Shown: piece by piece, positions 6,790 through 64,000 of the stretch
Layout: the number at the start of each line of letters is the position of its first letter
How positions within the stretch are numbered: the stretch's first letter is position 1
Origin: Tumebacillus algifaecis
GTDB lineage: Bacteria; Bacillota; Bacilli; Tumebacillales; Tumebacillaceae
Reading direction: 5' to 3'
NCBI RefSeq assembly: GCF_002243515.1
Contig: NZ_CP022657.1
Location: 92,001 to 156,000 of the forward strand
Length of the DNA: 64,000 nt
Made by a program: the position numbers and the translations under genes
The notes under the pieces: generated by a model
Database searches by the model: none
What the model saw: the letters and a program-made list of their open reading frames with translations, nothing else
What the model was told of the DNA's origin: nothing

Positions 6790-8154
6790 ATGATCGAAAA
6801 ACTAAAAACCCTGCTGCTCGCTGTTTTGGTCGTGACCTCGTTGCTCTTGTCGCTTGGGATCTGGAGCATCACACCGCAGTATGAGTCGATCGACGGACCG
6901 CAATTTGCCTCGAATGTGACGATTTCCGACCCGAGCTTCGAACGCACGATGAACAATGTTCTCGGGCCGCGCAACATTTTGCTCCATCGAGGTGAGAACA
7001 AACACAATCTCTTATTTCCTGGGCAATCTGGCTATCAAGCGGCGCTCGCGATCCTCAGCAACTCCACTTTTTTTGACATCAAGATCGAGACCAAATTTAA
7101 AGACGAAGGCTGGAAGAAGCTCGTCAATGAGGGCCAAGGCATCCAGTATGAATTTGATGCTGTCGTGCCGATCACGCTGCTGAACGATGCGGATATACTG
7201 CACTTCACCTCGCGGCTGGAGCCGTTTATGAACTTCAAAACGTTCTACCTGCTCCCAGACGGCACCAACGAGTACCGGGCTATTTTTGTCGAAAATGCCG
7301 ATACGATCTACAGCGCAACTGTCGTGTTGCCGCCCGAGGCGTTTGGTCGCTTGTTCGAAGAGCAGAAAGAAGCACCGCTCTATGCGCTACATGGGACCTC
7401 TTTGCTGCACCATTTCTATCTCCCGGTCGAGCGTCCGGTCGTCCACAGCTATTCGATCGACGTCAATCGGGTGATCGAAACGGACCGCTTGGTGGACTCG
7501 TTCTTCCTCGACAAGTCGATGACGCGTCGTGTGGTTGAGCGCGACGGCTCGGAAATCTTCACCGACGGCAACCGCATGGTGCGCGTCGATACGAAGCACC
7601 AGACGATCGAATATCGCAACTTGAACATCGAGGAAAAGCGCGTCAACCAACTGGACGAGGACACCAGCCTGGAGAAAGCGCTCGATTTTGCCAACGCGCA
7701 CGGTGGGTTTCTCGGCTCGGTGTCGATCCATCAGGTGCGCACGATCCGTCCCACCGAGATGGTGTGGGGGCAGTTAGAATTCCGTTCAAACGTGTCGGGA
7801 CTTCCGGTGATCGGTGATTTTTCGTCTGTCGCGGTTCAAGTGGCGCACAACAGCGTTACCGCCATGCGCCGTTCCGCCTATATGTCGGGAGCCAAGCCGG
7901 AGCGCGGTCGAGAGCTGCAATTGCTGTCCAGTGCCGATCTGCTGGAGTTGATCGAGAGCAATGCACTTCTGAAGCTGAACCGTGTCTCTGACGTCTATCT
8001 GGCCTATATGATGGGCGAACTTCATGGGCAGTCGGCCGAGCTGCGTCCCGTGTGGGTGGTCGAGCAATCGGGCGATTACCGCGAAGCAGTTTTTGACGCG
8101 GTGACGGGTGAGCAATTGCGCAGTGAAGGGGGGAAACTTCGTGGATTGGAGTAG
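6790..8154 (+). CDS. walH: WalK-regulating membrane protein WalH (YycH)
   Basis: YycH family protein that, with YycI, binds WalK and modulates its activity in Bacillus. It has one N-terminal membrane helix (LLLAVLVVTSLLLSLGI) followed by a large extracytoplasmic domain, about 455 residues in all. AGGAGG at 6775-6780 fits ATG 6790 better than the overlapping GTG 6784. The 3' end overlaps walI by 14 bases, so the two are translationally coupled. Family assignment rests on length, topology and position directly after walK. Confidence 0.93.
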   Translation: MIEKLKTLLLAVLVVTSLLLSLGIWSITPQYESIDGPQFASNVTISDPSFERTMNNVLGPRNILLHRGENKHNLLFPGQSGYQAALAILSNSTFFDIKIETKFKDEGWKKLVNEGQGIQYEFDAVVPITLLNDADILHFTSRLEPFMNFKTFYLLPDGTNEYRAIFVENADTIYSATVVLPPEAFGRLFEEQKEAPLYALHGTSLLHHFYLPVERPVVHSYSIDVNRVIETDRLVDSFFLDKSMTRRVVERDGSEIFTDGNRMVRVDTKHQTIEYRNLNIEEKRVNQLDEDTSLEKALDFANAHGGFLGSVSIHQVRTIRPTEMVWGQLEFRSNVSGLPVIGDFSSVAVQVAHNSVTAMRRSAYMSGAKPERGRELQLLSSADLLELIESNALLKLNRVSDVYLAYMMGELHGQSAELRPVWVVEQSGDYREAVFDAVTGEQLRSEGGKLRGLE

Positions 8155-9022
8155 AGCCAAGACCTATCTAATCCTGACCTTCCTCTTGCTCGATCTGCTA
8201 CTCGGCTACCAATATTACACCTCGCAGCAGGAAGCGCTCGGCTATGTGCAGTCGTTTAATACACAGCTCGACGAGCTGAAAGAAGTGCTTAAAGAGCGGA
8301 AGATGGTGCTTGTCACCGAAGTACCCAAAGAAACGCCGGTCATGCGTTTCCTCCAAGTTGGGCATCCCAAAGAGCCGCTACCAAACATCGCGGCATCGAT
8401 TCTGGTGGACGAGAAGGTCGTCGAGGACGACCAAAGCAAAGGCACGATGAAATTCAAATCGCTCGAAGGCGAATTTGAAGTGACAAGCGATGGGTATTTC
8501 AAACTTCGCTATCGCCCCGGGCTGATGAAAGCTGATATCGACATTGGGATCAAGCGCGGTCAGTATGTGCTGCAACGCCTTTTGCCAAACGTGTGGAACG
8601 GATCGCTGTACAAGGAGGACATGGCCTTGTACAGTGTGTCTGGAGAGAACACGACACTGCACTATTTGCAAAGCTACCAGCGCTATCCGATCTTCTCGGC
8701 GGTGCTCGAAGTGAATCTGGAGAATGCGGAGATTCTCGGCTATCGACAGAAAGCACTTGAGATCGGGGAAGAAGAGGAGCGTGGCCAGCGCGTCATCTCG
8801 GCGATCGGGGCGGTCCGGACCGTGGCGGAAACGTTCGACCCACAGGAGATCGGCAATCAAACGGGCAACGTCATCATCCATGAGGTCAAGCTGGGCTATT
8901 ATTCGCAGAACTATGTGGGGGCCGATGTCTGGTACCTTGCGCCGATGTGGCGAATTGTGACCGATTACAAAGTGTTTTATGTCAACGCTTTGACGGGCCA
9001 ATTGGAGAACAACGGATCGTAA
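8141..9022 (+). CDS. walI: WalK-regulating membrane protein WalI (YycI)
   Basis: YycI family partner of YycH. It begins with a membrane helix (YLILTFLLLDLLLGYQYY) and continues with an extracytoplasmic domain ending in repeated YcdB/YycI-type strands (WYLAPMWRIVTDYKVFYVNALTGQ). The frame extends upstream to 8108, but GTG 8141 has a GAAGGGGGG ribosome site eight bases away and places the helix at the N-terminus, giving 293 residues. It lies in the wal operon with a 14-base overlap upstream and an 18-base gap downstream. Confidence 0.93.
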   Translation: MDWSRAKTYLILTFLLLDLLLGYQYYTSQQEALGYVQSFNTQLDELKEVLKERKMVLVTEVPKETPVMRFLQVGHPKEPLPNIAASILVDEKVVEDDQSKGTMKFKSLEGEFEVTSDGYFKLRYRPGLMKADIDIGIKRGQYVLQRLLPNVWNGSLYKEDMALYSVSGENTTLHYLQSYQRYPIFSAVLEVNLENAEILGYRQKALEIGEEEERGQRVISAIGAVRTVAETFDPQEIGNQTGNVIIHEVKLGYYSQNYVGADVWYLAPMWRIVTDYKVFYVNALTGQLENNGS

Positions 9023-9040
9023 GAAAGTAGGGGAAAAGTT

Positions 9041-9844
9041 TTGATACGCTTTAGCGTCTTATGCAGTGGCAGTACGGGGAACTCCATCTATGTTGAAACT
9101 GACCAGACCAAAATTTTGATCGACGCCGGGGTGTCCGGCAAGCAGATCACGTCCTCGCTGCAAGAGATCGGGGTTGCTGTTGATGATCTCGATGCACTGC
9201 TCGTCACGCATGAGCATTCCGATCATGTGCGTGGTGTTGGCGTCATGGCCCGCAAATGCAAAGGGCTGGACGTCTTTGCCACCGCAGGCACATGGACAGG
9301 CATGCAAAAGCAGGTCGGTGAGATTGCAGACGACAAGCGGCATGTGTTCGGGGTGGATGACGTGCTCGATTTTGCCGATTTGCGCATCGAGCCGTTCCCG
9401 ATCTCACATGATGCCAACGACCCGGTCGGCTTTTGCTTCTATAATGGGACGAACAAGCTCGCCTTGGCGACCGATCTCGGCTATGCCAGCCAGCGCGTCA
9501 AACAGGCGGTCACAGGTGCGGACGCGCTGATCTTCGAGTCGAACCACGACACCGAAATGCTTCGGATCGGGCCGTACCCGTGGAGCGTCAAGAAGCGCAT
9601 CTTGGGTGACAAAGGCCACCTTTCGAATGAGACGGCAGGTGACGTGCTGTCCGAAGTGATGAGCGGTGATTCGAAAGATGTGTATTTGGCACATTTGAGC
9701 CCAGACAACAACATGCCGGAAATCGCCGAGATCACCGTGCGCGGCGTGTTGACCCAAAACGGCTATCAAGTGGGCAAAGACGTGATGCTTCACGACACCT
9801 ATCGCGACAAGCCGACGCCACTGAAAACGATCAAACGCCTGTAG
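9041..9844 (+). CDS. walJ: Metallo-beta-lactamase-fold protein WalJ (YycJ)
   Basis: YycJ/WalJ family metal-dependent hydrolase. Relatives act as 5'-3' exonucleases linked to DNA repair and to coordination of replication with division. The di-metal signature is His57-x-His59-x-Asp61-His62 (THEHSDHVRG), and a later metal-binding Asp is in LALATDLG. The length of 267 residues is normal. The start is TTG 9041 after GTAGGGGA. It is the last gene of the wal operon, which closes with a terminator. Confidence 0.94.
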   Translation: MIRFSVLCSGSTGNSIYVETDQTKILIDAGVSGKQITSSLQEIGVAVDDLDALLVTHEHSDHVRGVGVMARKCKGLDVFATAGTWTGMQKQVGEIADDKRHVFGVDDVLDFADLRIEPFPISHDANDPVGFCFYNGTNKLALATDLGYASQRVKQAVTGADALIFESNHDTEMLRIGPYPWSVKKRILGDKGHLSNETAGDVLSEVMSGDSKDVYLAHLSPDNNMPEIAEITVRGVLTQNGYQVGKDVMLHDTYRDKPTPLKTIKRL

Positions 9845-9860
9845 ATGGGCAAAAAAAAGG

Positions 9861-9895
9861 ACCCACTTCCCGAGCCAAACGGGGGGTGGGTTTTC
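9861..9895. terminator. Terminator of the wal operon
   Basis: Twelve-base arms at 9861-9872 and 9880-9891, pairing with two G-U pairs, followed by TTTTC on the + strand. The A-run upstream gives a T-run on the other strand, so it may also end the converging small gene. Confidence 0.75.
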
Positions 9896-9935
9896 AATGA
9901 AAGAAGGGGGAGACAAAAGCAAGCTGGCTCACAGC

Positions 9936-10154
9936 TCAGTTGGCATACAGTGAACGATCATCCGCTTCGAGGGAAATGTCAGCATCGAGCTGCCGTGCCT
10001 TTTGAATGACCTGTTGGCGGTCGAGAATCCCTTTCTCGACGAGCAATTCCACGAGAGCGGTCAGGACCAGCGTGTTCTTATAGTCCACTTCCTTCAGATC
10101 GGCCAGTTGGGCGATCAGATCCACTTCGGTTGGCAATCCATTCAGTCGATTCAT
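9936..10154 (-). CDS. Hypothetical 72-residue protein
   Basis: A small, acidic, probably helical protein with no signal or membrane segment (for example TLVLTALVELLVEKG and ISLEADDRSLYAN). Function unknown. The start is set at ATG 10154 because GGAGGGG lies just before it; an upstream in-frame TTG overlaps that ribosome site. It converges on walJ and diverges from htrA. Confidence 0.6.
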   Translation of the reverse strand: MNRLNGLPTEVDLIAQLADLKEVDYKNTLVLTALVELLVEKGILDRQQVIQKARQLDADISLEADDRSLYAN

Positions 10155-14338: not shown

Positions 14339-14501
14339 CGGTTTCATTCCCTTCGTTTTACATAAACACATGATACAAAATGACTGCCGCACTATGAAAC
14401 TGTTTTGTTCGTCAATCAGCAATATTGTACAGGGAAGTATCTTTGTGTTCAAAGAGTAATTCTTACAGTACAAAATGTCAATCAAGGGAGTCAATTCAGT
14501 A

Positions 14502-14664
14502 GTGCTTGCTGCCGTTACGGTGAGCCGTATCATAAGTAATTGAGTAATGAGACGTTGTGAGGAGACCTCGCCAACTATACCTTCGGGTTGGCTGAGGTCT
14601 TTTTGTGTTGAGGTTTTGCGCGGGATTTCTATATGGAGGTTGATCTTGTCGAGTTTGCGTTGCG
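14502..14664 (+). repeat. rlmH 3'-end repeat, copy 2, with terminator
   Basis: The core GAGCCGTATCATAAGTAA is at 14522-14539. Positions 14502-14539 are identical over 38 bases to 23429-23466. Downstream, a hairpin at 14563-14606 (GAGACCTCGCC...GGCTGAGGTC plus T-run) and the next 55 bases are shared with the copies at 37971 and 52673. The shared tail can be read as the end of a coding frame (VDLVEFALRGQ) and may be a gene remnant. Confidence 0.85.
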
Positions 14665-14885
14665 GGGTCAGGAGACGACATTGGAGTTAAAGATTCTCGG
14701 GAAAGCGAACTAATAGACAATGTGAGCCAAAATGCTTCATTCAGTATTAATCTTACAAATAGTGCACTGCCTTATTTGGGATGTGATATCATTAATAATG
14801 ATTGCTTAGGGACTTGTGTTTTACAGTTGAACATACATGACTCACTCTGGAGGGTAACAAGACGACTGTCGATTACACGGCCACT

Positions 14886-15143
14886 ATGTCGTTTTGGGAA
14901 AACCCTATTGGAAGACGGATTCTCGAACTAATGAATGAAAAGGGAAGTGCATTCTCCATTCGTGCGTTTGCAGATTGGTTAGGAGAGAACCGTGAAACAT
15001 TTAGGCAAACGCTTTTGGGTAATCGTCCGATCTCGTTGGGACATACGATATTTCCAGCGCTCAAAATATACATGGGGCGGTACTCAGACAGTAAACGTTT
15101 ACGCTACTTACGGAAACTAAGCATGATTTGGAGGGTATTGTAA
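14886..15143 (+). CDS. Small hypothetical protein, possibly DNA-binding
   Basis: An 85-residue basic product. The central part (FSIRAFADWLGENRETFRQ) could form a helix-turn-helix, but I see no clear family match. No good ribosome site stands before ATG 14886, so the start is uncertain. It ends 13 bases before the next gene, suggesting a two-gene unit. Confidence 0.5.
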   Translation: MSFWENPIGRRILELMNEKGSAFSIRAFADWLGENRETFRQTLLGNRPISLGHTIFPALKIYMGRYSDSKRLRYLRKLSMIWRVL

Positions 15144-15156
15144 AGGAGGGGATTGA

Positions 15157-15771
15157 TTGAAGAAGTTAAATCTGTGGTGGTTTTTAGTTCTGATTGGTAT
15201 TGGTGCAGGTGCTGTTCTTTATGTGGATGACAGGCGAGAAGCGCAGCATAAGCAAGAGTATGTTACTCATGTTGCAAGGGCGATATCCTACGTCGGGATG
15301 GCGGAATTAGAAGCCCAGCAGATTCTGGACCGTTGGGAAGAGTCTACTCCGTTTGAAGTGCTCAACTCCATGTTATCCATCTCCTCATCTCTCCATGCTG
15401 CAGAGGTCGAGTCAGACTCATTGGGAGGATATCTACGGTACCATGACGACTTGAATTGGGGCGGCAGCTCTACCTTTATCTCTTATCTTTTTAAGTTCTA
15501 CAAAGATGTAGTAGACAGGAGATTTCGCGAATCGTGGCAATATGGTCATCTTTCGAATCTTAACGGCGATGAAGCGGTGTATTGGGGTTCCATACGTCAG
15601 GATCTCACGGTTTTGCAAAGGGATCTTCATCACCTAGCTTCCGTAGACAGCAAGGTGTTTGAAGAAAATGATCGGTCGAAACTGTACCAATTCTGGATTG
15701 ACTGGACTTCTACTCTACAATTTCGAGAACCACATGAACGTTATCAGCAGATGTATAGCATGACCCCTTGA
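15157..15771 (+). CDS. Hypothetical membrane-anchored protein
   Basis: A 204-residue protein with an N-terminal hydrophobic segment (LWWFLVLIGIGAGAVLYV) acting as a signal anchor, followed by a charged, probably helical outer domain with many aromatic residues. No family recognised. The start is TTG 15157 with GGAGGGG seven bases upstream. A terminator follows. It may be co-transcribed with the small gene before it. Confidence 0.6.
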   Translation: MKKLNLWWFLVLIGIGAGAVLYVDDRREAQHKQEYVTHVARAISYVGMAELEAQQILDRWEESTPFEVLNSMLSISSSLHAAEVESDSLGGYLRYHDDLNWGGSSTFISYLFKFYKDVVDRRFRESWQYGHLSNLNGDEAVYWGSIRQDLTVLQRDLHHLASVDSKVFEENDRSKLYQFWIDWTSTLQFREPHERYQQMYSMTP

Positions 15772-53765: not shown

Positions 53766-55990
<2,225 letters not shown>

Positions 55991-56151
55991 CCTCTCGATC
56001 CCCCTTGGTCGTCGCAAACCGTAGGGTAAGTTAGTAGATCGATGTTGGCAAGTGCTTTTTTTATGCCAAAATGTCGCGGGCAAAGTCTGCACTTTTACGC
56101 CGCGACATTCTGCAATTTCATTATGCGATAAACAGTAAGGGGTCAATATGG

Positions 56152-56182
56152 AAAATAGGGTGGGGCTTCCCACCCTATTTTG
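56152..56182. terminator. Hairpin next to the IS21 end
   Basis: Arms AAAATAGGGTGGG and CCCACCCTATTTT. It lies downstream of the RidA gene on the - strand and may be its terminator. Confidence 0.7.
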
Positions 56183-56198
56183 GCTGCGAATCGTAGTC

Positions 56199-56597
56199 TT
56201 AGACTCTAGCTGCCCATATTTCAACTTCGATTCTGATTTCTGGTAATCCTAATTCAGAAAGATAACCAATCGTCATTGCCGGATAATTTTGCCCAAACAA
56301 TTTCTCCCACTCTGTGTTCAAATAATACCAATCAATTTTTTGGGTAGCCCAAATGTTTACTTTGATAATATGTTCCGCTGTTAATTCCTCAGACTGTAGC
56401 ACAGCTTGGATATTGTCAAAAGTATTCTTGATCTGTTCGTTCATATCATCGGGAAGCTCACCATTCTGATCAACCCCGATTTGACCAGAAGCAACGTACA
56501 GCTCGGAATTCCTCGGAATTTTGGTGATATGTGTGTACTTACCGACTGGACTATACATATCGACTGGGTTTTTTCTAGTTATTTTGGAGTTTTCCAT
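56199..56597 (-). CDS. RidA family protein
   Basis: A 132-residue RidA/YjgF-type protein that removes reactive enamine/imine intermediates, or a relative with another small-molecule role. The pattern LYVASGQIGVDQNGELPDDMNEQ, then NIQAVLQSEELTAEHIIKVNIWAT, and the C-terminal strand RIEVEIWAARV fit the family. The conserved Arg that binds the substrate carboxylate is likely in EIRIEVE. ATG 56597 with GAGGTT upstream. Confidence 0.85.
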   Translation of the reverse strand: MENSKITRKNPVDMYSPVGKYTHITKIPRNSELYVASGQIGVDQNGELPDDMNEQIKNTFDNIQAVLQSEELTAEHIIKVNIWATQKIDWYYLNTEWEKLFGQNYPAMTIGYLSELGLPEIRIEVEIWAARV

Positions 56598-56633
56598 TAA
56601 TAAGAACCTCGCATTCTGGAGATTTTCTGGCAT

Positions 56634-57340
56634 TTCGTCTATTCTTGTTTAAACGCACTGCGCCAGTAAAAATGATTTCTGTTATTAAAGAGAATGTATT
56701 GAATAGATTATAGCCAATGTAATAGTTTGCGTCAAAATCTTTGGAATGGCGATGATATAAATTTACTCGCAAGTTGTATCATAGCGGATGGAGGCGACTG
56801 TCACGGCGTCACTTCTTCGTCCTCATCTTGACGTGTACTTCTGGCTGTCCGACCAGCAACAGAGTGCAAAAGGGGATTACGTCCATGTCTCGATTCCGAA
56901 TGTAGCGTAGCTCCGGAATCAGTTAGCATAACCGATACGTTTAGGGTATCGGCTCAATAGCAGGAAATAGATCGCCAGAGTCATCAACTCATGGGTGGTC
57001 TTTTTTTGTTCGGCAAATCCAATCGATGTTACATGATCGTCTCGTTCAATAGTAGGGATGAGTTGTGAAACAAGAGATACTCGGCATAAGTTAAATCATT
57101 TCTATGATCTCATCCCTATGCGGACTCTACACGTTGGTTCGCAATCAAGGCTTGCTGGTATTCTGCAAGATGCGTCAATAGAACACGTATCTAAAACGAG
57201 ATAAATTTGTTTGGGGAAATCACGCTCGATGGAAGTGGATAGGATGGCCCTTACATCAACTTTCCTTCATGATGAATACCCAGCTAACACAGCGCTCAGT
57301 ACGTGTTTTTATATATTATTTTTGTTATATGGTAGTTGTT
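56634..57340. other. Long region without an intact gene
   Basis: Holds a degenerate GTATCATA motif near 56777, a toxin relic (56921-57060) and otherwise no recognised feature. It marks the change from the repeat-divided region to the phosphonate-type operon. Confidence 0.45.
56921..57060 (-). pseudogene. Second type I toxin relic
   Basis: On the - strand the sequence ACGATCATGTAACATCGATT parallels ACAATCATGAAACACATGTT of the toxin at 20140-20259, with the Lys codon AAA changed to a stop. It ends in an A-rich PNKK-like tail and a terminator hairpin (GACCACCC.../GGCGATCTATT). The associated repeat GATACGTTTAGGGTATCGGCTCA follows. It is inactive. Confidence 0.5.
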
Positions 57341-57400
57341 GTATAATAATAAATTTTATAGTATCCTCAATATAAGGAATAAGTAATAATGTTATTATAC
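57341..57400 (+). promoter_or_regulatory. AT-rich leader with inverted repeat before the operon
   Basis: GTATAATAA (57341-57349) and TTATTATAC (57392-57400) are inverted copies framing an AT-rich stretch. TATAAT-like sequences here are the likely promoter, but no good -35 could be fixed. The repeat could be an operator. Confidence 0.4.
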
Positions 57401-57420
57401 CTTTCGGAGGTGCATTGAAA

Positions 57421-58047
57421 ATGGTCACTTTCAGCGATCAGATCGCATCAGCACTGCTTGAGATCAAGGCGGTACTCTCGAACCCGACAAAGCCGTTTAT
57501 CTTGGAGGGGGGAAGACGATGCCCAATTTATTTTGACAATCGGATGACCATCTCATATCCGCGAGTGCGAGAGTTGATCGCAGATGCATTCGTAGACTTG
57601 ATCCGCAAACAATATCCCGATGTCGAAATGATCGCAGGTGTCGCGACGGCCGGGATTCCACACGCGACTTTGGTCGCATCTAAACTGAATCTCCCCATGA
57701 TCTACGTCCGCACGTCACCGAAAAAGCATGGTACTGAGAGTCTCATCGAAGGTGTGCTTCCGGAAGGTAAAAAGGTCGTGATCTTGGAAGACCTCGTATC
57801 CACTGGCAATTCTGCTCCGATCGTGGTTGGTGGCGTCCGCCAAGGGGGCGGTGAGGTGCTGGGAGTGGTAACGATCTTTACCCACGGTTTTCAAAGTATT
57901 CAGGATAATTACGACAAGATTGATTGTGAACTTCATACACTGACAGACTACCATGCCCTGCTGGAGATGGCGTCTCAAGCGAAGTATTTCAATGACGAAG
58001 AGTTGAAACAAATCAACCGATGGCGCGAATCACCGGATGCTTACTGA
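57421..58047 (+). CDS. pyrE: Orotate phosphoribosyltransferase homolog (PyrE-like)
   Basis: A 208-residue type I PRTase close to Bacillus PyrE: MIAGVATAGIPHATLVA, IYVRTSPKKHG (flexible loop lysines) and the PRPP loop VVILEDLVSTGNSA (about 119-132). The region that is usually SGxxSPxYxDNR reads GGRRCPIYFDNR, so the orotate/ribose pocket is altered. It stands first in a phosphonate-type operon and away from other pyr genes, which suggests a special substrate and not the general pyrimidine role. GGAGG precedes ATG 57421; TTG 57415 is a less likely start. Confidence 0.85.
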   Translation: MVTFSDQIASALLEIKAVLSNPTKPFILEGGRRCPIYFDNRMTISYPRVRELIADAFVDLIRKQYPDVEMIAGVATAGIPHATLVASKLNLPMIYVRTSPKKHGTESLIEGVLPEGKKVVILEDLVSTGNSAPIVVGGVRQGGGEVLGVVTIFTHGFQSIQDNYDKIDCELHTLTDYHALLEMASQAKYFNDEELKQINRWRESPDAY

Positions 58048-58080
58048 TGGAATTTAGTTGTTAATTAAGGAGGTTTGCGC

Positions 58081-58887
58081 ATGTACCGGATCGGGATAAT
58101 AAGCGACGGACGTCTCAAGAAGTGGCTGGAGCACGCAGTCACAGCACAAGATGATATGGTTTTGGCGCAGCAAGAGGATCATGAGGTGGATGCTTGGATC
58201 TCAACTCTGCCTGCTGCACTGACACATTTGGACAAGCCTGTGATTTACTGCGGAGTTGATGACGATTCAGCATTGTATCGAATTCCCAATGCGCCTGCAA
58301 CATCCCTCAGCCGTGTGTTAGCTGGAATTCCTAGAGTAAAACATGTCGCGGTAACTGCCGTCCAGCCAACGGATGCCCTCAGCAAAAAAGGACCTGTCGA
58401 TGCGCTTTCACCAACAGTCCCCTCATGGCTGACACAAGTGCAATGGCCGAAAGGGGCTACCCACAGTGGACAGTCTGTCCGTGCACAACATACGCGTTCT
58501 TGGTTGGTCGGATGTCAGATCGAAACAGCAACACCAGTAACGATCGCGGAGATACTGGATCGTCTACATACATTGCCTCGTGTGCTCCTCACGCCACCCG
58601 GACTGCAATTTGCAGACACGGCAGTTGTATCTGAATTTTTCCGCGACCAGGGTCGTGCCGATGGTGGATTTTATGAAACGGTCGTTCTCGTTGATTCGGT
58701 TGAGTTCGCAGAGAGTGGGCACATTCTGTTATGGTGCGTCGCTCATGAGATTGCGCCGATTCCGGAGACCATTGACTATGTTCGCAGTGTTCTGAGTCCT
58801 CACAGCTTGTCTGAAATTACTACAGTTCAGACCGACCACTCGCTTGGACTGTTGCAAAATCTGTTACCAGTAGGAGAGGGGCAGTGA
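58081..58887 (+). CDS. Degenerate paralog of type II GAPDH
   Basis: A 268-residue protein not matched by any named family on reading. It aligns by eye with the following GAPDH-like protein: YRIGIISDGRLKKWLEHAVTAQDDM against VRIGVIGCGTIGKRVADAVRLQSDM, and PETIDYVRSVL...TDHSLGLL against PETIDCIRAVM...TDSALGIQ. It lacks the GxGxxG loop and the SCNTTG catalytic Cys. It is probably a non-catalytic partner subunit or has a new role. AAGGAGG before ATG 58081; its stop overlaps the next start (ATGA type). Confidence 0.7.
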   Translation: MYRIGIISDGRLKKWLEHAVTAQDDMVLAQQEDHEVDAWISTLPAALTHLDKPVIYCGVDDDSALYRIPNAPATSLSRVLAGIPRVKHVAVTAVQPTDALSKKGPVDALSPTVPSWLTQVQWPKGATHSGQSVRAQHTRSWLVGCQIETATPVTIAEILDRLHTLPRVLLTPPGLQFADTAVVSEFFRDQGRADGGFYETVVLVDSVEFAESGHILLWCVAHEIAPIPETIDYVRSVLSPHSLSEITTVQTDHSLGLLQNLLPVGEGQ

Positions 58888-59942
58888 TGATGAAATCGGT
58901 ACGAATTGGCGTGATCGGATGCGGCACAATTGGCAAACGAGTGGCAGACGCGGTCCGGCTGCAATCCGATATGCAACTCGTCGGGATCGGACTTCGCACT
59001 CCAAACCCGACCGCCCTATCCGCACACTTGTCTGGAATACCCCTGTTTTGCACAGATCCGATGCGATTTGATCGTTTCGAAAAGGGTGGATTGCCTTGTG
59101 CAGGTGGCCTGCGCGATCTTTTGTCCCAAGTGGATGTGATCCTTGATTGTACACAGGCCGGGGAAGGTGCCAAACGCTTAGCTTTATATCAAGAAATGGG
59201 TGTGAAATCGATCTTCCAAGGCGGCGAAAAGCACGCCACCACTGGCCTGACGTTTAGCACGTTCGGTAACTTCGAGGATGCGATCGGTCGTTCTGCTGTT
59301 CGCGTCGGCAGTTGTAACACGACAGGGCTGGTGCGTCTTCTCAGCACGTTGGACAGATATTGGGGTGTCAAACATGCAGAAGGTTCGCTCGTTCGTTGTT
59401 CCACCGACCCGGACAAGGCGGAAAACGGATTGCCAAACGGGGCCGCACCAGTATTCGGCTTGTCACATCATGGACCGGATGCCCAACTTGTGATGCCGAC
59501 GCTGTCGATCTTCACACAGGCAGTGGCCGTTCCGATGTTTTTCTCACATGTTCAGATGATGAGCGTCAAGCTGAACAAACCGGCCGATCGTGACGAGGTC
59601 ATGAACGTCTTGTGCAACACTCCGCGCATACTCGTGGAATCGCATCGTAAAGTTGGCAAGACAACTGCACAATTGAGCCATTATTATGCGGAAACCCCTC
59701 GCATGCGCGGCGACCGTCAAGAATTGTTGCTGTGGGAAGAATCAATCGTCGTGGAAGGCGATCAGTTGCACGCGATGACATCGATTGATATGCAATGCAT
59801 CACGATTCCAGAGACCATTGACTGCATCCGAGCAGTGATGGGGCTAGAGACAGAGCGCAATCGTTGTATGTGGCAGACCGATTCGGCACTCGGAATTCAG
59901 AAACACGAGGTATGTTACCAGCCATCCTCATTGACTGTGTAA
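58887..59942 (+). CDS. Type II (archaeal-type) glyceraldehyde-3-phosphate dehydrogenase homolog
   Basis: A 351-residue protein of the archaeal GAPDH kind: Rossmann GVIGCGTIGKRVADAV, catalytic Cys143 in GSCNTTGL, SHHGPDAQLVMP with the family His, and the ending IPETIDCIRAVM. It interconverts acyl phosphate and aldehyde with NAD(P). Bacteria normally use type I GAPDH, so an extra type II enzyme in an operon with PEP mutase points to a glyceraldehyde-3-phosphate analogue as substrate. ATG 58887 overlaps the preceding stop. Confidence 0.85.
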   Translation: MMKSVRIGVIGCGTIGKRVADAVRLQSDMQLVGIGLRTPNPTALSAHLSGIPLFCTDPMRFDRFEKGGLPCAGGLRDLLSQVDVILDCTQAGEGAKRLALYQEMGVKSIFQGGEKHATTGLTFSTFGNFEDAIGRSAVRVGSCNTTGLVRLLSTLDRYWGVKHAEGSLVRCSTDPDKAENGLPNGAAPVFGLSHHGPDAQLVMPTLSIFTQAVAVPMFFSHVQMMSVKLNKPADRDEVMNVLCNTPRILVESHRKVGKTTAQLSHYYAETPRMRGDRQELLLWEESIVVEGDQLHAMTSIDMQCITIPETIDCIRAVMGLETERNRCMWQTDSALGIQKHEVCYQPSSLTV

Positions 59943-59953
59943 GGGGGGAACTT

Positions 59954-60610
59954 TTGAAAATCTTCATTGATACAGCGAATATCGAGGAAGTTAAAGCGGC
60001 TTACGATCTGGGTGTGATTGCTGGCGTGACCACCAACCCCAGCTTGGCGGCCAAAGAAGGACGAGCGTTTGAGGATGTGCTCCATGATATTTTGGGCATT
60101 GTGGACGGTCCAGTGAGTGCGCAAGTCACCGATACAGAAGCAAAAGGGATGATCGCACAAGGTGAAGACTTTGCGGCTCTGTCGGATAAGGTCACAGTCA
60201 AGGTACCGATGGGGCTTGAAGGCCTGAAAGCGGTGGCTCATTTTGCGAAACGTGGTATCAAAACCAACGTCACGTTGATCTTTACCATCAATCAGGCATT
60301 GATGGCATCCCGGGCGGGTGCCACTTTCGTCAGTCCGTTCATCAATCGGCTGGAAAACGTCAACCACGATGGTTTGCAGTTGATCGAAGGCATTGCAGAT
60401 CTGTTTACAACTCATGCGATACCGACTGAAATCATTGCAGCGAGCATTCGCACTCCTTATCATGTCACCAAAGCAGCGCAAGCTGGAGCTCACATTGGCA
60501 CGATGCCATATGATGTGATTCGTCAACTGGTGCAACATCCATTGACCGATCAAGGTGTCAAAAAGTTTTTGGATGACTGGAGCAAGTATCAAGCTGCGGT
60601 ACTAGCGTAA
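59954..60610 (+). CDS. fsa: Transaldolase / fructose-6-phosphate aldolase family protein
   Basis: A 218-residue class I aldolase of the small transaldolase (FSA/TalC/MipB) group: FIDTANIEEVKAAYDLGVIAGVTTNP at the start, Schiff-base Lys83 in TVKVPMG, then TNVTLIFTINQALMASRAGA and SPFINRLEN. It moves or adds a dihydroxyacetone (or similar) unit to an aldehyde. The start is TTG 59954 after AAGGGGGG. Here the aldehyde may be a phosphonate analogue from the GAPDH-like step. Confidence 0.9.
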   Translation: MKIFIDTANIEEVKAAYDLGVIAGVTTNPSLAAKEGRAFEDVLHDILGIVDGPVSAQVTDTEAKGMIAQGEDFAALSDKVTVKVPMGLEGLKAVAHFAKRGIKTNVTLIFTINQALMASRAGATFVSPFINRLENVNHDGLQLIEGIADLFTTHAIPTEIIAASIRTPYHVTKAAQAGAHIGTMPYDVIRQLVQHPLTDQGVKKFLDDWSKYQAAVLA

Positions 60611-60631
60611 CGTTTGGAGGAGGAGCCGGGG

Positions 60632-61303
60632 ATGAATGGCAAACAATTGGCGGGGGAACAAGCCGCTCAGTACGTTGAGAACGGAATGATCGTCGGCCTA
60701 GGGACAGGCTCGACAGTTTACTATTCAATCGTTGCGCTTGGTCGAAGAATTCGCGAGGGTCTGCAAATTCAATGCATTCCAACATCCAAGCAGACGGAGC
60801 ACTTGGCAAATGAGTTGAGTATTCCGCTCATCTCGTTGAAAGACGTGGAAAAACTGGACATCACAATTGATGGTGCTGACGAAATTGACCCCAACCTGAA
60901 CTTGATAAAAGGCGGTGGCGGTGCATTGTTCCGCGAAAAACTGATCGCATCCTTATCAGATCGGTTGGTGATCGTTGCTGATCAAGTCAAGACGGTCGAG
61001 CGTCTCGGCGCATTCTGTGTGCCGGTCGAAGTGGTTCCGTTCGCCACCGATGTAGTGGCTCGCACAATCAGCACAATGGATGGATCGGCAACATTACGAT
61101 GTGACCAAGAAGACGTCCCGTTCGTCACAGATAATGGGAACTACATTTTGGATTGTAATTTTGGTCACATCGAACAGCCTCTTCAATTGGATCGTGAATT
61201 AAAACAGCATATTGGCGTTGTCGAGACCGGCTTGTTTGTTGATATGGTTGGTGTTGCCCTGGTGGGTTCGCCCGATGGAGTATCAGTATTGGAACGCAAA
61301 TAA
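60632..61303 (+). CDS. rpiA: Ribose-5-phosphate isomerase A
   Basis: A 223-residue RpiA interconverting ribose- and ribulose-5-phosphate. It shows GLGTGSTVYYSI, the active-site DGADEID and KGGGGALFREK, with the C-terminal VVETGLFVDM. ATG 60632 follows GGAGGAGGAG; TTG 60614 is less likely. Its place between aldolase and PEP mutase suggests it isomerises a pentose phosphonate. Confidence 0.93.
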   Translation: MNGKQLAGEQAAQYVENGMIVGLGTGSTVYYSIVALGRRIREGLQIQCIPTSKQTEHLANELSIPLISLKDVEKLDITIDGADEIDPNLNLIKGGGGALFREKLIASLSDRLVIVADQVKTVERLGAFCVPVEVVPFATDVVARTISTMDGSATLRCDQEDVPFVTDNGNYILDCNFGHIEQPLQLDRELKQHIGVVETGLFVDMVGVALVGSPDGVSVLERK

Positions 61304-61344
61304 TGAGCTTTCCTACAATCAGCCAGGAGAGGATGGAATGACCA

Positions 61345-62283
61345 TTGATTAGAAAATCCACAAAACTACGCCAATTGTTGCAAGAAGATCGCTGCCTGAA
61401 GATCATTGGTGCCAATGATGGCATGACAGCGATTCTCGGAGAACGTGAAGGTTTCGATGGTCTGTGGGCAAGTGGATTGGCAATCTCGACTTCATACGGT
61501 GTGCCTGATGCGAGCATCTTGACGATGACCGAATTTCTCGATGCCGCTAGCATGATGAACAAAGCGTCAAGCCTCCCGATCATTGCCGACTGTGACACTG
61601 GATTTGGAGAGGTCAACAACATCATCCGGATGATTCGGGAGTATGAAAATGCGGGCATCGCCGCAGTTTGCATCGAAGACAAGAACTTCCCGAAGCGCAA
61701 CAGCTTCTTGGAAGGGCATGACCTCGCAGATATGTATGAGTTTGCTGCTAAAATCCACATAGCGAAGGCGGCACAGACCGACCCGGATTTTGTAGTCATT
61801 GCACGACTTGAGTCACTGATCGCTGGAATGGGTTTGGAAGATGCCTTGACCCGCGCACAGATGTACGCAGATGCCGGTGCGGATGCGATCTTGGTCCACT
61901 CCAAATCCAAAGAAGCAACAGAAGTGTTGGCGTTTGCCGCACGGTGGAAAAAGATTGGCCGCAAGACTCCGTTGATCATCGTACCCACCACCTACTATAC
62001 ACTCACCTTCCAGCAAGCAGAGATGGCGGGTTTCAGTATGGTGATCTATGCCAACCAGTTGCTGCGCAGTGCGGTTAAAGCAATGGAGGAGGCATTGTTG
62101 GTGATCAACGAGCATGGCAACACCGAACCGCTGGAAGCACAAATGAGTACGGTAAAAGAAGTGTTTTCCCTAGTCAAAACACAGGAGGCTACAGCCAAAG
62201 AAACTTCATTTGATCAACTGGTCTCCCGTCTTCGTGAACAAGAGATGACACAAGACCTGCTCTCGGTTGGTGAATCGTCATGA
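61345..62283 (+). CDS. pepM: Phosphoenolpyruvate mutase (phosphonate-forming)
   Basis: Rearranges PEP to phosphonopyruvate, making the C-P bond. The 312-residue ICL/PEPM protein has the metal/substrate block WASGLAISTSYGVPDAS, Asp82 and Asp84 in DCDTGFG, the diagnostic loop EDKNFPKRNS (Glu111, Lys113, Lys117, Asn119, Ser120), Arg154 in ARLES and His185 in VHSK. This is the PEP mutase signature and not that of isocitrate or methylisocitrate lyase; phosphonopyruvate hydrolase remains a lesser alternative. Start TTG 61345. The stop overlaps the dehydrogenase start (ATGA). Confidence 0.9.
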   Translation: MIRKSTKLRQLLQEDRCLKIIGANDGMTAILGEREGFDGLWASGLAISTSYGVPDASILTMTEFLDAASMMNKASSLPIIADCDTGFGEVNNIIRMIREYENAGIAAVCIEDKNFPKRNSFLEGHDLADMYEFAAKIHIAKAAQTDPDFVVIARLESLIAGMGLEDALTRAQMYADAGADAILVHSKSKEATEVLAFAARWKKIGRKTPLIIVPTTYYTLTFQQAEMAGFSMVIYANQLLRSAVKAMEEALLVINEHGNTEPLEAQMSTVKEVFSLVKTQEATAKETSFDQLVSRLREQEMTQDLLSVGESS

Positions 62284-63206
62284 ACGTATTACTGCTTGGC
62301 ACTTTTGACGATACGTTTCAACAGATGATCGCCCGGGATCATCAAGTCCAGATTCTTGCCAAGCGCGATGACGACAAGACATTAGGGATGATAGGGCAAG
62401 CGGAGATGGTCGTCATTCGTAGTCCACATCGGATCACCGATGAGATGATACGAGCCGCAGCTCATTTGCGCTGGATTATCCGAGGCGGATCAGGAACAGA
62501 CAATATCTCATCCCTGTATCGTGAGAAAAACATCGCACTGATCTGTGTACCGGCCAATGCTCGTTCCGTGGCCGAACTGTCGCTTGGGATGATGCTGAGC
62601 CTGTACAGACAACTTCGTCAGGCACATCGTTCGCTTCAGGAAGGGAAATGGCTTAAAAATGAGTTGAGCGGGTTTGAAGTTCAAGGGAAAAAGCTGGGGA
62701 TAATCGGTTTTGGCAACATCGGGCAGACGCTTGGACAGATGGCTCACCTGCTAGGGATGCATGTAAATGTTTCAGACCGATCGATGTACAAAGCGGATAA
62801 AGCTCGTCTGCTCGAAGCAATCAATGCAGTGGCGATGGACTCGGAGAGTCTGCTGTCTGATTCCGATATTGTCGTGCTCTGCACACCGTTGACTTCGGAA
62901 ACGCATCATATGATCTGTCGCGAAACGCTTGCACTGATGAAGACGACTGCGATCTTGATCAACATTGGAAGGGGTGGATTGGTGAACACAGACGACCTGT
63001 ATCAGCATCTCGTGCAAAAGAAAATTGCTGGTGCAGGACTCGACGTTTTTGAAACTGAGCCGCCAAGTCACCACCCAATTTTTGATTTAGAAAACGTGAT
63101 CTGCACGCCGCATATCGGGGCACAGACCCGAGATGCAAAGAAACGAATCGGCGATCGCATGATCGAGATTGTGATGGAGATCGTATCGAACCGGCGTTGC
63201 TCATGA
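62280..63206 (+). CDS. D-2-hydroxyacid dehydrogenase (probable phosphonopyruvate reductase)
   Basis: A 308-residue dehydrogenase of the D-3-phosphoglycerate/D-lactate kind: Rossmann GIIGFGNIGQTLG, substrate Arg in INIGRGGLVN, Glu in DVFETEPP and catalytic His in CTPHIGA. It lacks the ACT domain of biosynthetic SerA. It directly follows and overlaps PEP mutase by four bases. PEP mutase equilibrium favours PEP, so a coupled enzyme must consume phosphonopyruvate; reduction to phosphonolactate fits, and no decarboxylase gene is seen in the window. Confidence 0.85.
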   Translation: MNVLLLGTFDDTFQQMIARDHQVQILAKRDDDKTLGMIGQAEMVVIRSPHRITDEMIRAAAHLRWIIRGGSGTDNISSLYREKNIALICVPANARSVAELSLGMMLSLYRQLRQAHRSLQEGKWLKNELSGFEVQGKKLGIIGFGNIGQTLGQMAHLLGMHVNVSDRSMYKADKARLLEAINAVAMDSESLLSDSDIVVLCTPLTSETHHMICRETLALMKTTAILINIGRGGLVNTDDLYQHLVQKKIAGAGLDVFETEPPSHHPIFDLENVICTPHIGAQTRDAKKRIGDRMIEIVMEIVSNRRCS

Positions 63207-64000
63207 ACGAAGTGCAGATCACCGACATTGAGTGGCATGGCAAGCGAGCATTGTGCCGAGTGGATTTGAATGTCCCCTATCAAAACGGCAAGATAACGGA
63301 TGACACTCGGATTCGCGGTGCGCTTGGCACCATCGAGTATTTGATCGAACGGGGTGCAAAAGTCATTTTGCTCACCCATCTGGGCTATCCAAAAGGGAAA
63401 GTGGTGTCGGAATTGCGTGTTGACCCGATTGCATCGCGGTTATCGGAACTGTTGCAGGTCCCGGTGCGTAAATGCGATGAGACAGTGGGCGAAACGGCAC
63501 TTCGCGAAATCGAGGGCCTGCAACCTGGCGATGTGCTGTTGCTTGAAAACGTGCGATTCTTAGCAGGTGAAGAGAGCAACTCCCAGGAACTCGCACGGCA
63601 ATACGCCGAGCTTGGAGATGTGTTCGTATTGGATGCGTTTGCCACGATTCATCGCCGCCACGCGTCGATCATCGGAATCTCTACTCATCTGCCGGCCGTG
63701 AGTGGCTTGTTGATGCAACGCGAGTTGCGGGAGTTGCGAAGAGTGACCGAATCACCGGAGTCACCATTTACGGCGATCATGGGCGGTGCAAAAGTCAAGG
63801 ACAAGATCGAAGTGATCGAACGTCTGCTAGAAACCACAGACCAACTGTTGATCGGTGGAGCCATTGCCAATACATTTCTGGCGGCGCAGGGATTGGAAGT
63901 CGGCTGTTCCCTGTACGACGAGGGAAAAATCGAACGTGCGGCAGTGATTCTGCAACTGGCACAACAGAAACAGAGGACGTTGTTGTTACCAGTCGATGTA
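63203..64000 (+). CDS. pgk: Phosphoglycerate kinase homolog (3' end outside window)
   Basis: PGK-like N-terminal domain and start of the C-terminal domain: CRVDLNVPYQNGKITDDTRIR, LLLENVRF, HRRHAS and MGGAKVKDK. The usual SHLGRP motif reads THLGYP, replacing an Arg that contacts the 3-phosphoglycerate phosphate, and NDAFGTAH reads LDAFATIH. The other basic-patch residues are kept. This suggests an altered acid substrate, such as phosphonolactate. ATG 63203 overlaps the preceding stop (ATGA). The frame is open to the window end. Confidence 0.9.
   Translation, partial: MNEVQITDIEWHGKRALCRVDLNVPYQNGKITDDTRIRGALGTIEYLIERGAKVILLTHLGYPKGKVVSELRVDPIASRLSELLQVPVRKCDETVGETALREIEGLQPGDVLLLENVRFLAGEESNSQELARQYAELGDVFVLDAFATIHRRHASIIGISTHLPAVSGLLMQRELRELRRVTESPESPFTAIMGGAKVKDKIEVIERLLETTDQLLIGGAIANTFLAAQGLEVGCSLYDEGKIERAAVILQLAQQKQRTLLLPVDV

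Follow-up and report, generated by a model that had tools for sequence, protein, structure and literature searches.

Introduction

Type II GAPDHs are phosphorylating enzymes of the archaeal type, such as those of Methanothermus fervidus (1CF2) and of Pyrococcus horikoshii (2CZC), and those known to us are homotetramers without a degenerate partner. Enzymes of the catalytic plus pseudo-subunit type include HisG/HisZ, PRPP synthetase with the PRPP-synthetase-associated proteins, and chloroplast GapA/GapB. In the literature, we found no description of such a pair for type II GAPDH.

FrbC, FrbA, FrbB, and PEP mutase make up the typical content of FR-900098/fosmidomycin-type phosphonate clusters, and valinophos is an example of the phosphonolactate branch, in which a 2-hydroxyacid dehydrogenase acts on phosphonopyruvate. 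We know of no FR-900098/fosmidomycin-type cluster that continues to GAPDH, ribulose-phosphate 3-epimerase (Rpe), PRPP synthetase, and a phosphoribosyltransferase. Phosphonopyruvate can be drawn off by either a 2-hydroxyacid dehydrogenase or a homocitrate-synthase-like enzyme, and the homologation step of FR-900098-type clusters has been described (PMC12871164). The open-access literature, outside which most subscription papers lie, yielded no paper that connects PEP mutase to PRPP synthetase, to a phosphoribosyltransferase, or to a GAPDH pseudoenzyme, which is a weak absence; in a 2026 review (PMC13302981) and a 2025 genome-mining paper (PMC12723261), the terms searched brought up no such clusters.

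A PEP mutase operon with a run of central metabolic genes

The stretch analysed here (the window) is 64,000 nucleotides long and corresponds to C1:92001-156000 of the 4.5-Mb genome of Tumebacillus algifaecis. Its operon of interest lies on the + strand, runs past the window end, and carries the following genes in this order (coordinates marked L002 belong to the locus read beyond the window):

57421..58047, + strand: PyrE-type orotate phosphoribosyltransferase, opening the operon (NCBIfam NF001729, 5e-51; TIGR00336, 1e-35)
58081..58887, + strand: pseudo-GAPDH, 268 aa (NF003251, 5e-16; PDB profile, 6.8e-18; residue map; modelled fold)
58887..59942, + strand: intact type II GAPDH, 351 aa (NF003251, 1e-105; motif survey)
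59954..60610, + strand: fructose-6-phosphate aldolase/TalC-type transaldolase, FSA (TIGR00875, 4e-83)
60614..61303, + strand: ribose-5-phosphate isomerase A, RpiA (NF001924, 2e-84)
61345..62283, + strand: PEP mutase, the C-P bond former, with EDKNFPKRNS (TIGR02320, 5e-97)
62280..63206, + strand: D-2-hydroxyacid dehydrogenase, proposed phosphonopyruvate reductase (PF02826, 2e-58; TIGR01327, 1e-73, below its cut-off)
63203..64000, + strand, whole gene L002:6204-7388: phosphoglycerate kinase, PGK, crossing the window end (NF010569, 2e-137)
L002:about 7409-8326, beyond the window: PRPP synthetase (TIGR01251, 2e-56)
L002:about 8320-9012, beyond the window: Rpe
L002:about 9028-9984, beyond the window: EamA-type exporter (PF00892, 3.5e-28)

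The PEP mutase scores 324.4 bits against TIGR02320 (cut-off 319.55) and has the EDKxxxxxNS motif, and the dehydrogenase gene adjoining it is predicted to draw off phosphonopyruvate. The PEP mutase operon context named in the original prediction was right, and the operon is longer than the window could display. Neither a nucleotide kinase gene nor homologation genes occur in the operon. Rfam gave no match in 56500-64000, and promoter-like and terminator-like sites around the operon did not stand clearly above shuffled sequence. Directly upstream lies an IS21-type istA/istB pair on the − strand (53766-56224), whose istA ORF overlaps the end of a RidA-like ORF (56199-56633), the whole region spanning 53766-56633. 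Downstream, on the − strand, is a gene for a 1067-aa protein with a broken partial duplicate alongside (L002:10293-13496 and 14439-15761), and a 1178-aa ORF (L002:15875-19411), with a SIR2-type-like start followed by an NTPase-like region, appears to resemble a defence-type protein.

Several genes of the operon have counterparts elsewhere in the genome. A second PyrE (C1:3062608) is 50% identical to that of the operon and a second FSA 60%, while the housekeeping PGK is 48% identical, the housekeeping Rpe 43-44%, and two housekeeping PRPP synthetases 27-28%. Since these copies, RpiB, and type I GAPDHs sit elsewhere, PyrE, PGK, Rpe, PRPP synthetase, and FSA of the operon are extra; its RpiA is the sole RpiA of the genome, with RpiB also present as in relatives. 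The operon looks imported, because its GAPDH is the only type II GAPDH over the cut-off among 399 genomes sampled from the class, and just one of 398 genomes sampled from the phylum has an operon-type PRPP synthetase (E<=1e-45). The pseudo-GAPDH is likewise absent from all other genomes among these 398 and from six family relatives. When the phylum was scanned with the pseudo-GAPDH, six weak matches appeared in addition to its own genome, of which five are ordinary type II GAPDHs and the sixth (G147, L006) is a chance match in an ffh/rimM/trmD region. Single-protein queries, which reach close relatives only, returned nothing in two scans of 85,000 genomes.

The same genome encodes a second PEP mutase (C1:2703329-2704195; L057:13252-14199) that is 53% identical and carries EDKVFPKMNS. 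A thymidylate-kinase-like gene lies directly downstream, with divergent NTP_transf_5 and MFS genes, and the region, possibly a second phosphonate locus, has gene types in common with the Streptomyces and Bradyrhizobium clusters described below.

An intact and a degenerate type II GAPDH in tandem

In our sequence analyses, the second protein of the pair proved to be a complete type II GAPDH. It scores 353.6 bits against NF003251 (cut-off 185), matches a solved type II GAPDH over its full length (2e-70), and retains GxGxxG, the catalytic Cys in SCNTT, and the equivalent of His219. Its ATG start at 58887, near which further in-frame starts occur (GTG 58884, ATG 58890), gives a one-base overlap with the stop codon of the pseudo-GAPDH gene. 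The substrate-region motif is RCSTD instead of RR[AGS][ATS]D; RC[SA]TD occurs in the GAPDHs of all three clusters (window, Bradyrhizobium, Streptomyces) and RR in every other type II GAPDH read, RR being conserved but not known as strictly defining.

The first protein is read from an intact frame of 268 aa with an ATG start and the ribosome-binding site AAGGAGG. Against NF003251 it gives an E value of 5.1e-16 across residues 73-259, at 58.6 bits and so short of the cut-off of 185; against the type II GAPDHs of the PDB, it reaches 1.2e-9 as a single sequence and 6.8e-18 with a two-member profile. No Pfam match was obtained for it. The original prediction held that this protein keeps the N- and C-terminal pattern of its neighbour, and a local GAPDH HMM indeed matches residues 3-38, which form the N-terminal strand-helix, as well as residues 67-260, the C-terminal domain and C-terminal helix being kept (IPETID, QTDxSLGL). 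The losses it named were also borne out: GxGxxG is missing, and the position of the catalytic Cys, which we take to be Cys140 in the numbering of 1CF2, is Ala in the window copy and Pro in the Bradyrhizobium copy. Further losses had not been foreseen. The catalytic His219, whose place was found by counting onward from Cys140 along 1CF2, is an invariant Trp, and about half of the Rossmann domain, roughly 70 residues, is gone. TRxW, EFFRD, and GPxD are residues common to the pseudo-GAPDHs and absent from GAPDH.

Modelling from a two-sequence alignment gave a pLDDT of 37, which rose to 64 (pTM 0.66) when GAPDH rows from viral contigs were included. The resulting model is closest to the four solved type II GAPDHs (Z 18.5-19.3), the next structures scoring about 13. 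An unrelated fold, the outcome that would have spoken against the original prediction, was not found; as GAPDH rows were in the alignment of the model, the fold match is support and not fully independent proof. The pseudo-GAPDH is a diverged true homologue of type II GAPDH and no chance pattern. Homology and residue maps support the proposal of tandem paralogues, one probably active and the other probably inactive, in a PEP mutase operon.

Type II GAPDH genes are scattered on bacterial plasmids (L011, L012, L061-L068), often near genes for P-type ATPases, AarF/UbiB, and alpha-glucan phosphorylase, and are present on IMG/VR viral contigs as well (L080-L093). In the stretches read, no pseudo-GAPDH stands beside the type II GAPDHs of other plasmids or viral contigs. 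An arsenate-type GAPDH of the kind encoded in ars operons was considered and dropped, there being no ars genes in the operon.

Recurrence of the pair in other PEP mutase clusters

The original prediction had suggested looking for the pair in other PEP mutase operons, and it was found in a PEP mutase cluster on a Bradyrhizobium plasmid and probably in another on a Streptomyces plasmid. On Bradyrhizobium japonicum plasmid NZ_CP066352, a 295-aa 'hypothetical protein' is 31% identical to the pseudo-GAPDH (2e-17), and its gene overlaps by 4 bases that of a type II GAPDH, which is 41% identical to the window GAPDH. This cluster also comprises a homocitrate-synthase-like enzyme, large and small aconitase subunits, PEP mutase, an IDH-like enzyme, and a D-2-hydroxyacid dehydrogenase; further genes encode NTP_transf_5, a phosphoribosyltransferase, PRPP synthetase, Rpe, a weak CoaE-like match, a PhyH dioxygenase, and an IMPase-type protein. 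An intact frame together with 31% identity across phyla is indicative that the pseudo-GAPDH is under selection.

Streptomyces scopuliridis plasmid NZ_CP109092 carries an intact type II GAPDH and a probable degenerate partner. The cluster here has a homocitrate-synthase-like enzyme, AcnA aconitase, PEP mutase, and an IDH-like enzyme, accompanied by PhyH, IMPase, TMK-like, and NDK-like proteins, PRPP synthetase, the type II GAPDH, and a hypoxanthine phosphoribosyltransferase. The probable pseudo-GAPDH (229 aa) is 26% identical by blastp (1e-5, in a small set), keeps TRxW, and scores 18.9 bits with the HMM, for which 0/1000 shuffles were reported. Since it has no match to the GAPDH profile itself, we count it as a weak third member. 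Its gene is not beside that of GAPDH; it stands directly before the PRPP synthetase gene and overlaps it. In neither the Bradyrhizobium nor the Streptomyces cluster did we see PGK, RpiA, or transaldolase, so host enzymes would have to serve.

Two enzymes set the three clusters apart. Their PRPP synthetases share the loop DDLCSSGST and group at 96/94 in the tree; that of the window (191.4 bits against TIGR01251, cut-off 113) is 46% identical to the Bradyrhizobium enzyme and lacks the canonical ribose-phosphate loop [DE]DMIDT[AG]GT, whereas the housekeeping copies are canonical (DDMIDTAGT-like). A branch supported at 100/99 sets their GAPDHs off in the tree, with the caution that those of Streptomyces and Bradyrhizobium sit on long branches. 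The Rpe of the window is also closer to that of Bradyrhizobium (55% identity) than to its own housekeeping copy (44%). Phage records held only ordinary PRPP synthetases (28% identity), and scans of viral contigs with alignments of pseudo-GAPDH and PRPP synthetase gave no relatives. Direct observations are the genes present, their homology, the residues lost, the return of the pair in other phyla, and the special groups formed by GAPDH and PRPP synthetase.

A proposed phosphonate route to a PRPP analogue

From this gene content, we are inclined, with modest confidence, to read the operon as a pathway dedicated to phosphonates, one that repeats central metabolism as far as a PRPP or nucleotide analogue, the pseudo-GAPDH being most likely a non-catalytic partner of the GAPDH. 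Its reactions, substrate, complex, and product are what we infer. PEP mutase would convert PEP to phosphonopyruvate, which the hydroxyacid dehydrogenase would reduce to phosphonolactate, an analogue of 3-phosphoglycerate. The operon PGK would activate the carboxyl group, and the intact type II GAPDH would reduce the acyl phosphate to the phosphonate counterpart of glyceraldehyde 3-phosphate. This triose analogue could then reach ribose 5-phosphonate by way of transaldolase, host transketolase, Rpe, and RpiA, the special PRPP synthetase would make a PRPP analogue, and PyrE would join it with orotate to an orotidylate-like phosphonate; the EamA protein may export the nucleotide-like product. It is the contiguity of enzymes that map onto the series from 3-phosphoglycerate through PRPP to a nucleotide, together with a PEP mutase bearing EDKxxxxxNS, that counts in favour of a pathway.

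The reduced (hydroxy) form of 2-oxo-4-phosphonobutyrate is the isosteric methylene analogue of 3-phosphoglycerate, which is established chemistry. In the Bradyrhizobium and Streptomyces clusters, FR-900098-type homologation of phosphonopyruvate to 2-oxo-4-phosphonobutyrate would come first. The window has no homologation genes, and the sugar predicted for it would therefore fall one atom short of the phosphate; this, the absence of a nucleotide kinase gene from its operon, and the reliance of the other two clusters on host PGK, RpiA, and transaldolase weigh against the pathway. The two entries, with and without homologation, fit the two ways of drawing off phosphonopyruvate that have been described (PMC12871164). 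That two different entries converge on the core from GAPDH to PRPP synthetase is our strongest argument for C-P analogues of triose and pentose phosphates as its substrates. The phosphoribosyltransferases, of orotate type in the window and of hypoxanthine type in Streptomyces, suggest different bases, with orotate predicted for the window and probably a purine for Streptomyces. The fuller proposition, that in at least three phyla gluconeogenesis, the non-oxidative pentose phosphate pathway, and PRPP synthesis exist as a complete phosphonate copy leading to C-P analogues of PRPP and nucleotides, with a catalytic plus dead-subunit GAPDH adapted to a phosphonate aldehyde, is more tentative, and we would place it slightly below an even chance.

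Role of the pseudo-GAPDH and alternative explanations

Having lost the usual cofactor loop as well as the two catalytic residues, the pseudo-GAPDH should be incapable of GAPDH chemistry. Through coupled translation it may enter a hetero-oligomer, in which it would stabilise the GAPDH or tune or channel the phosphonate substrate. Such a mixed oligomer is the leading idea, at about an even chance, because the C-terminal domain is conserved and the genes are coupled by overlap in both the window and Bradyrhizobium. The main rival is a link to PRPP synthetase, on account of the Streptomyces gene order. The overlap of the pseudo-GAPDH and PRPP synthetase genes in Streptomyces and, more generally, the TRxW, EFFRD, and GPxD residues foreign to GAPDH, would suit a protein that acts freely within the same phosphonate-sugar pathway, as a binding or regulatory protein, as an enzyme with a different catalytic role, or as a partner of PRPP synthetase. 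We regard this as the less likely reading, given that the protein keeps the GAPDH C-terminal domain and helix and is coupled to GAPDH in two of the clusters.

Resistant copies of a target are found in many producers. Conceivably, then, the pathway makes a phosphonate, and the duplicates of glycolytic and pentose enzymes serve self-resistance as copies of its targets and do not build it, as the further PyrE, PGK, Rpe, FSA, and PRPP synthetase genes elsewhere in the genome would allow. This is improbable, as the duplication extends over a whole series of pathway enzymes and resistance copies of an entire route would be unusual; moreover, the GAPDH belongs to the rare type II and the altered PRPP synthetase loop is shared by clusters from three phyla. 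Still less probable is an ordinary sugar-phosphate or nucleotide salvage operon whose PEP mutase homologue has another activity. Type II GAPDH does occur near PRPP synthetase on some metal-resistance and nucleotide-salvage plasmids, with thymidine-phosphorylase-like genes, but the GAPDHs of those plasmids have RR and no pseudo-GAPDH alongside, the PEP mutase of the operon exceeds the curated PEP_mutase cut-off with EDKxxxxxNS present, and the two further clusters add FR-900098-type homologation genes. Finally, loss of both catalytic residues and of part of a domain might mark the first gene as a functionless, decaying GAPDH duplicate, a reading we rejected as highly improbable in view of the cross-phylum Bradyrhizobium homologue (31% identical) at the same place in the same pair, the intact frame, the ribosome-binding site, and the conserved novel residues.

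Comparison with known systems

If the phosphonate route to PRPP is as proposed, nature would make nucleotide phosphonates, whose chemistry underlies tenofovir-type synthetic antivirals, by rerouted central metabolism in several phyla. They would constitute an undescribed class of phosphonate natural products with predictable targets, namely PRPP- and nucleotide-using enzymes, and the combination of PEP mutase, a DDLCSSGST PRPP synthetase, an RC-type type II GAPDH, and a pseudo-GAPDH would serve as a mining signature. To our knowledge, a phosphonate version of the path to PRPP would be new.

PEP mutase is common to the window operon and the FR-900098/fosmidomycin-type clusters, whereas the homocitrate-synthase-like, aconitase, and IDH-like enzymes of the latter are present in the Bradyrhizobium and Streptomyces clusters but not in the window operon. 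With the phosphonolactate branch, the window shares the succession of PEP mutase and D-2-hydroxyacid dehydrogenase; in contrast to that branch, it continues with PGK, GAPDH, pentose enzymes, and PRPP synthetase. Compared with the M. fervidus and P. horikoshii enzymes, the fold is the same and the intact protein has Cys140, His219, and GxGxxG, but the cluster GAPDHs have RC for RR, and the pseudo-GAPDH is without the cofactor loop and both catalytic residues. The original prediction had suggested a hetero-oligomer, and a pseudo-subunit for type II GAPDH would, if real, be the first example. Its nearest parallels are HisG/HisZ, the PRPP-synthetase-associated proteins, and GapA/GapB, in which a diverged or dead paralogue regulates or completes a catalytic oligomer, as is proposed here; unlike the window pair, GapA and GapB are both catalytic.
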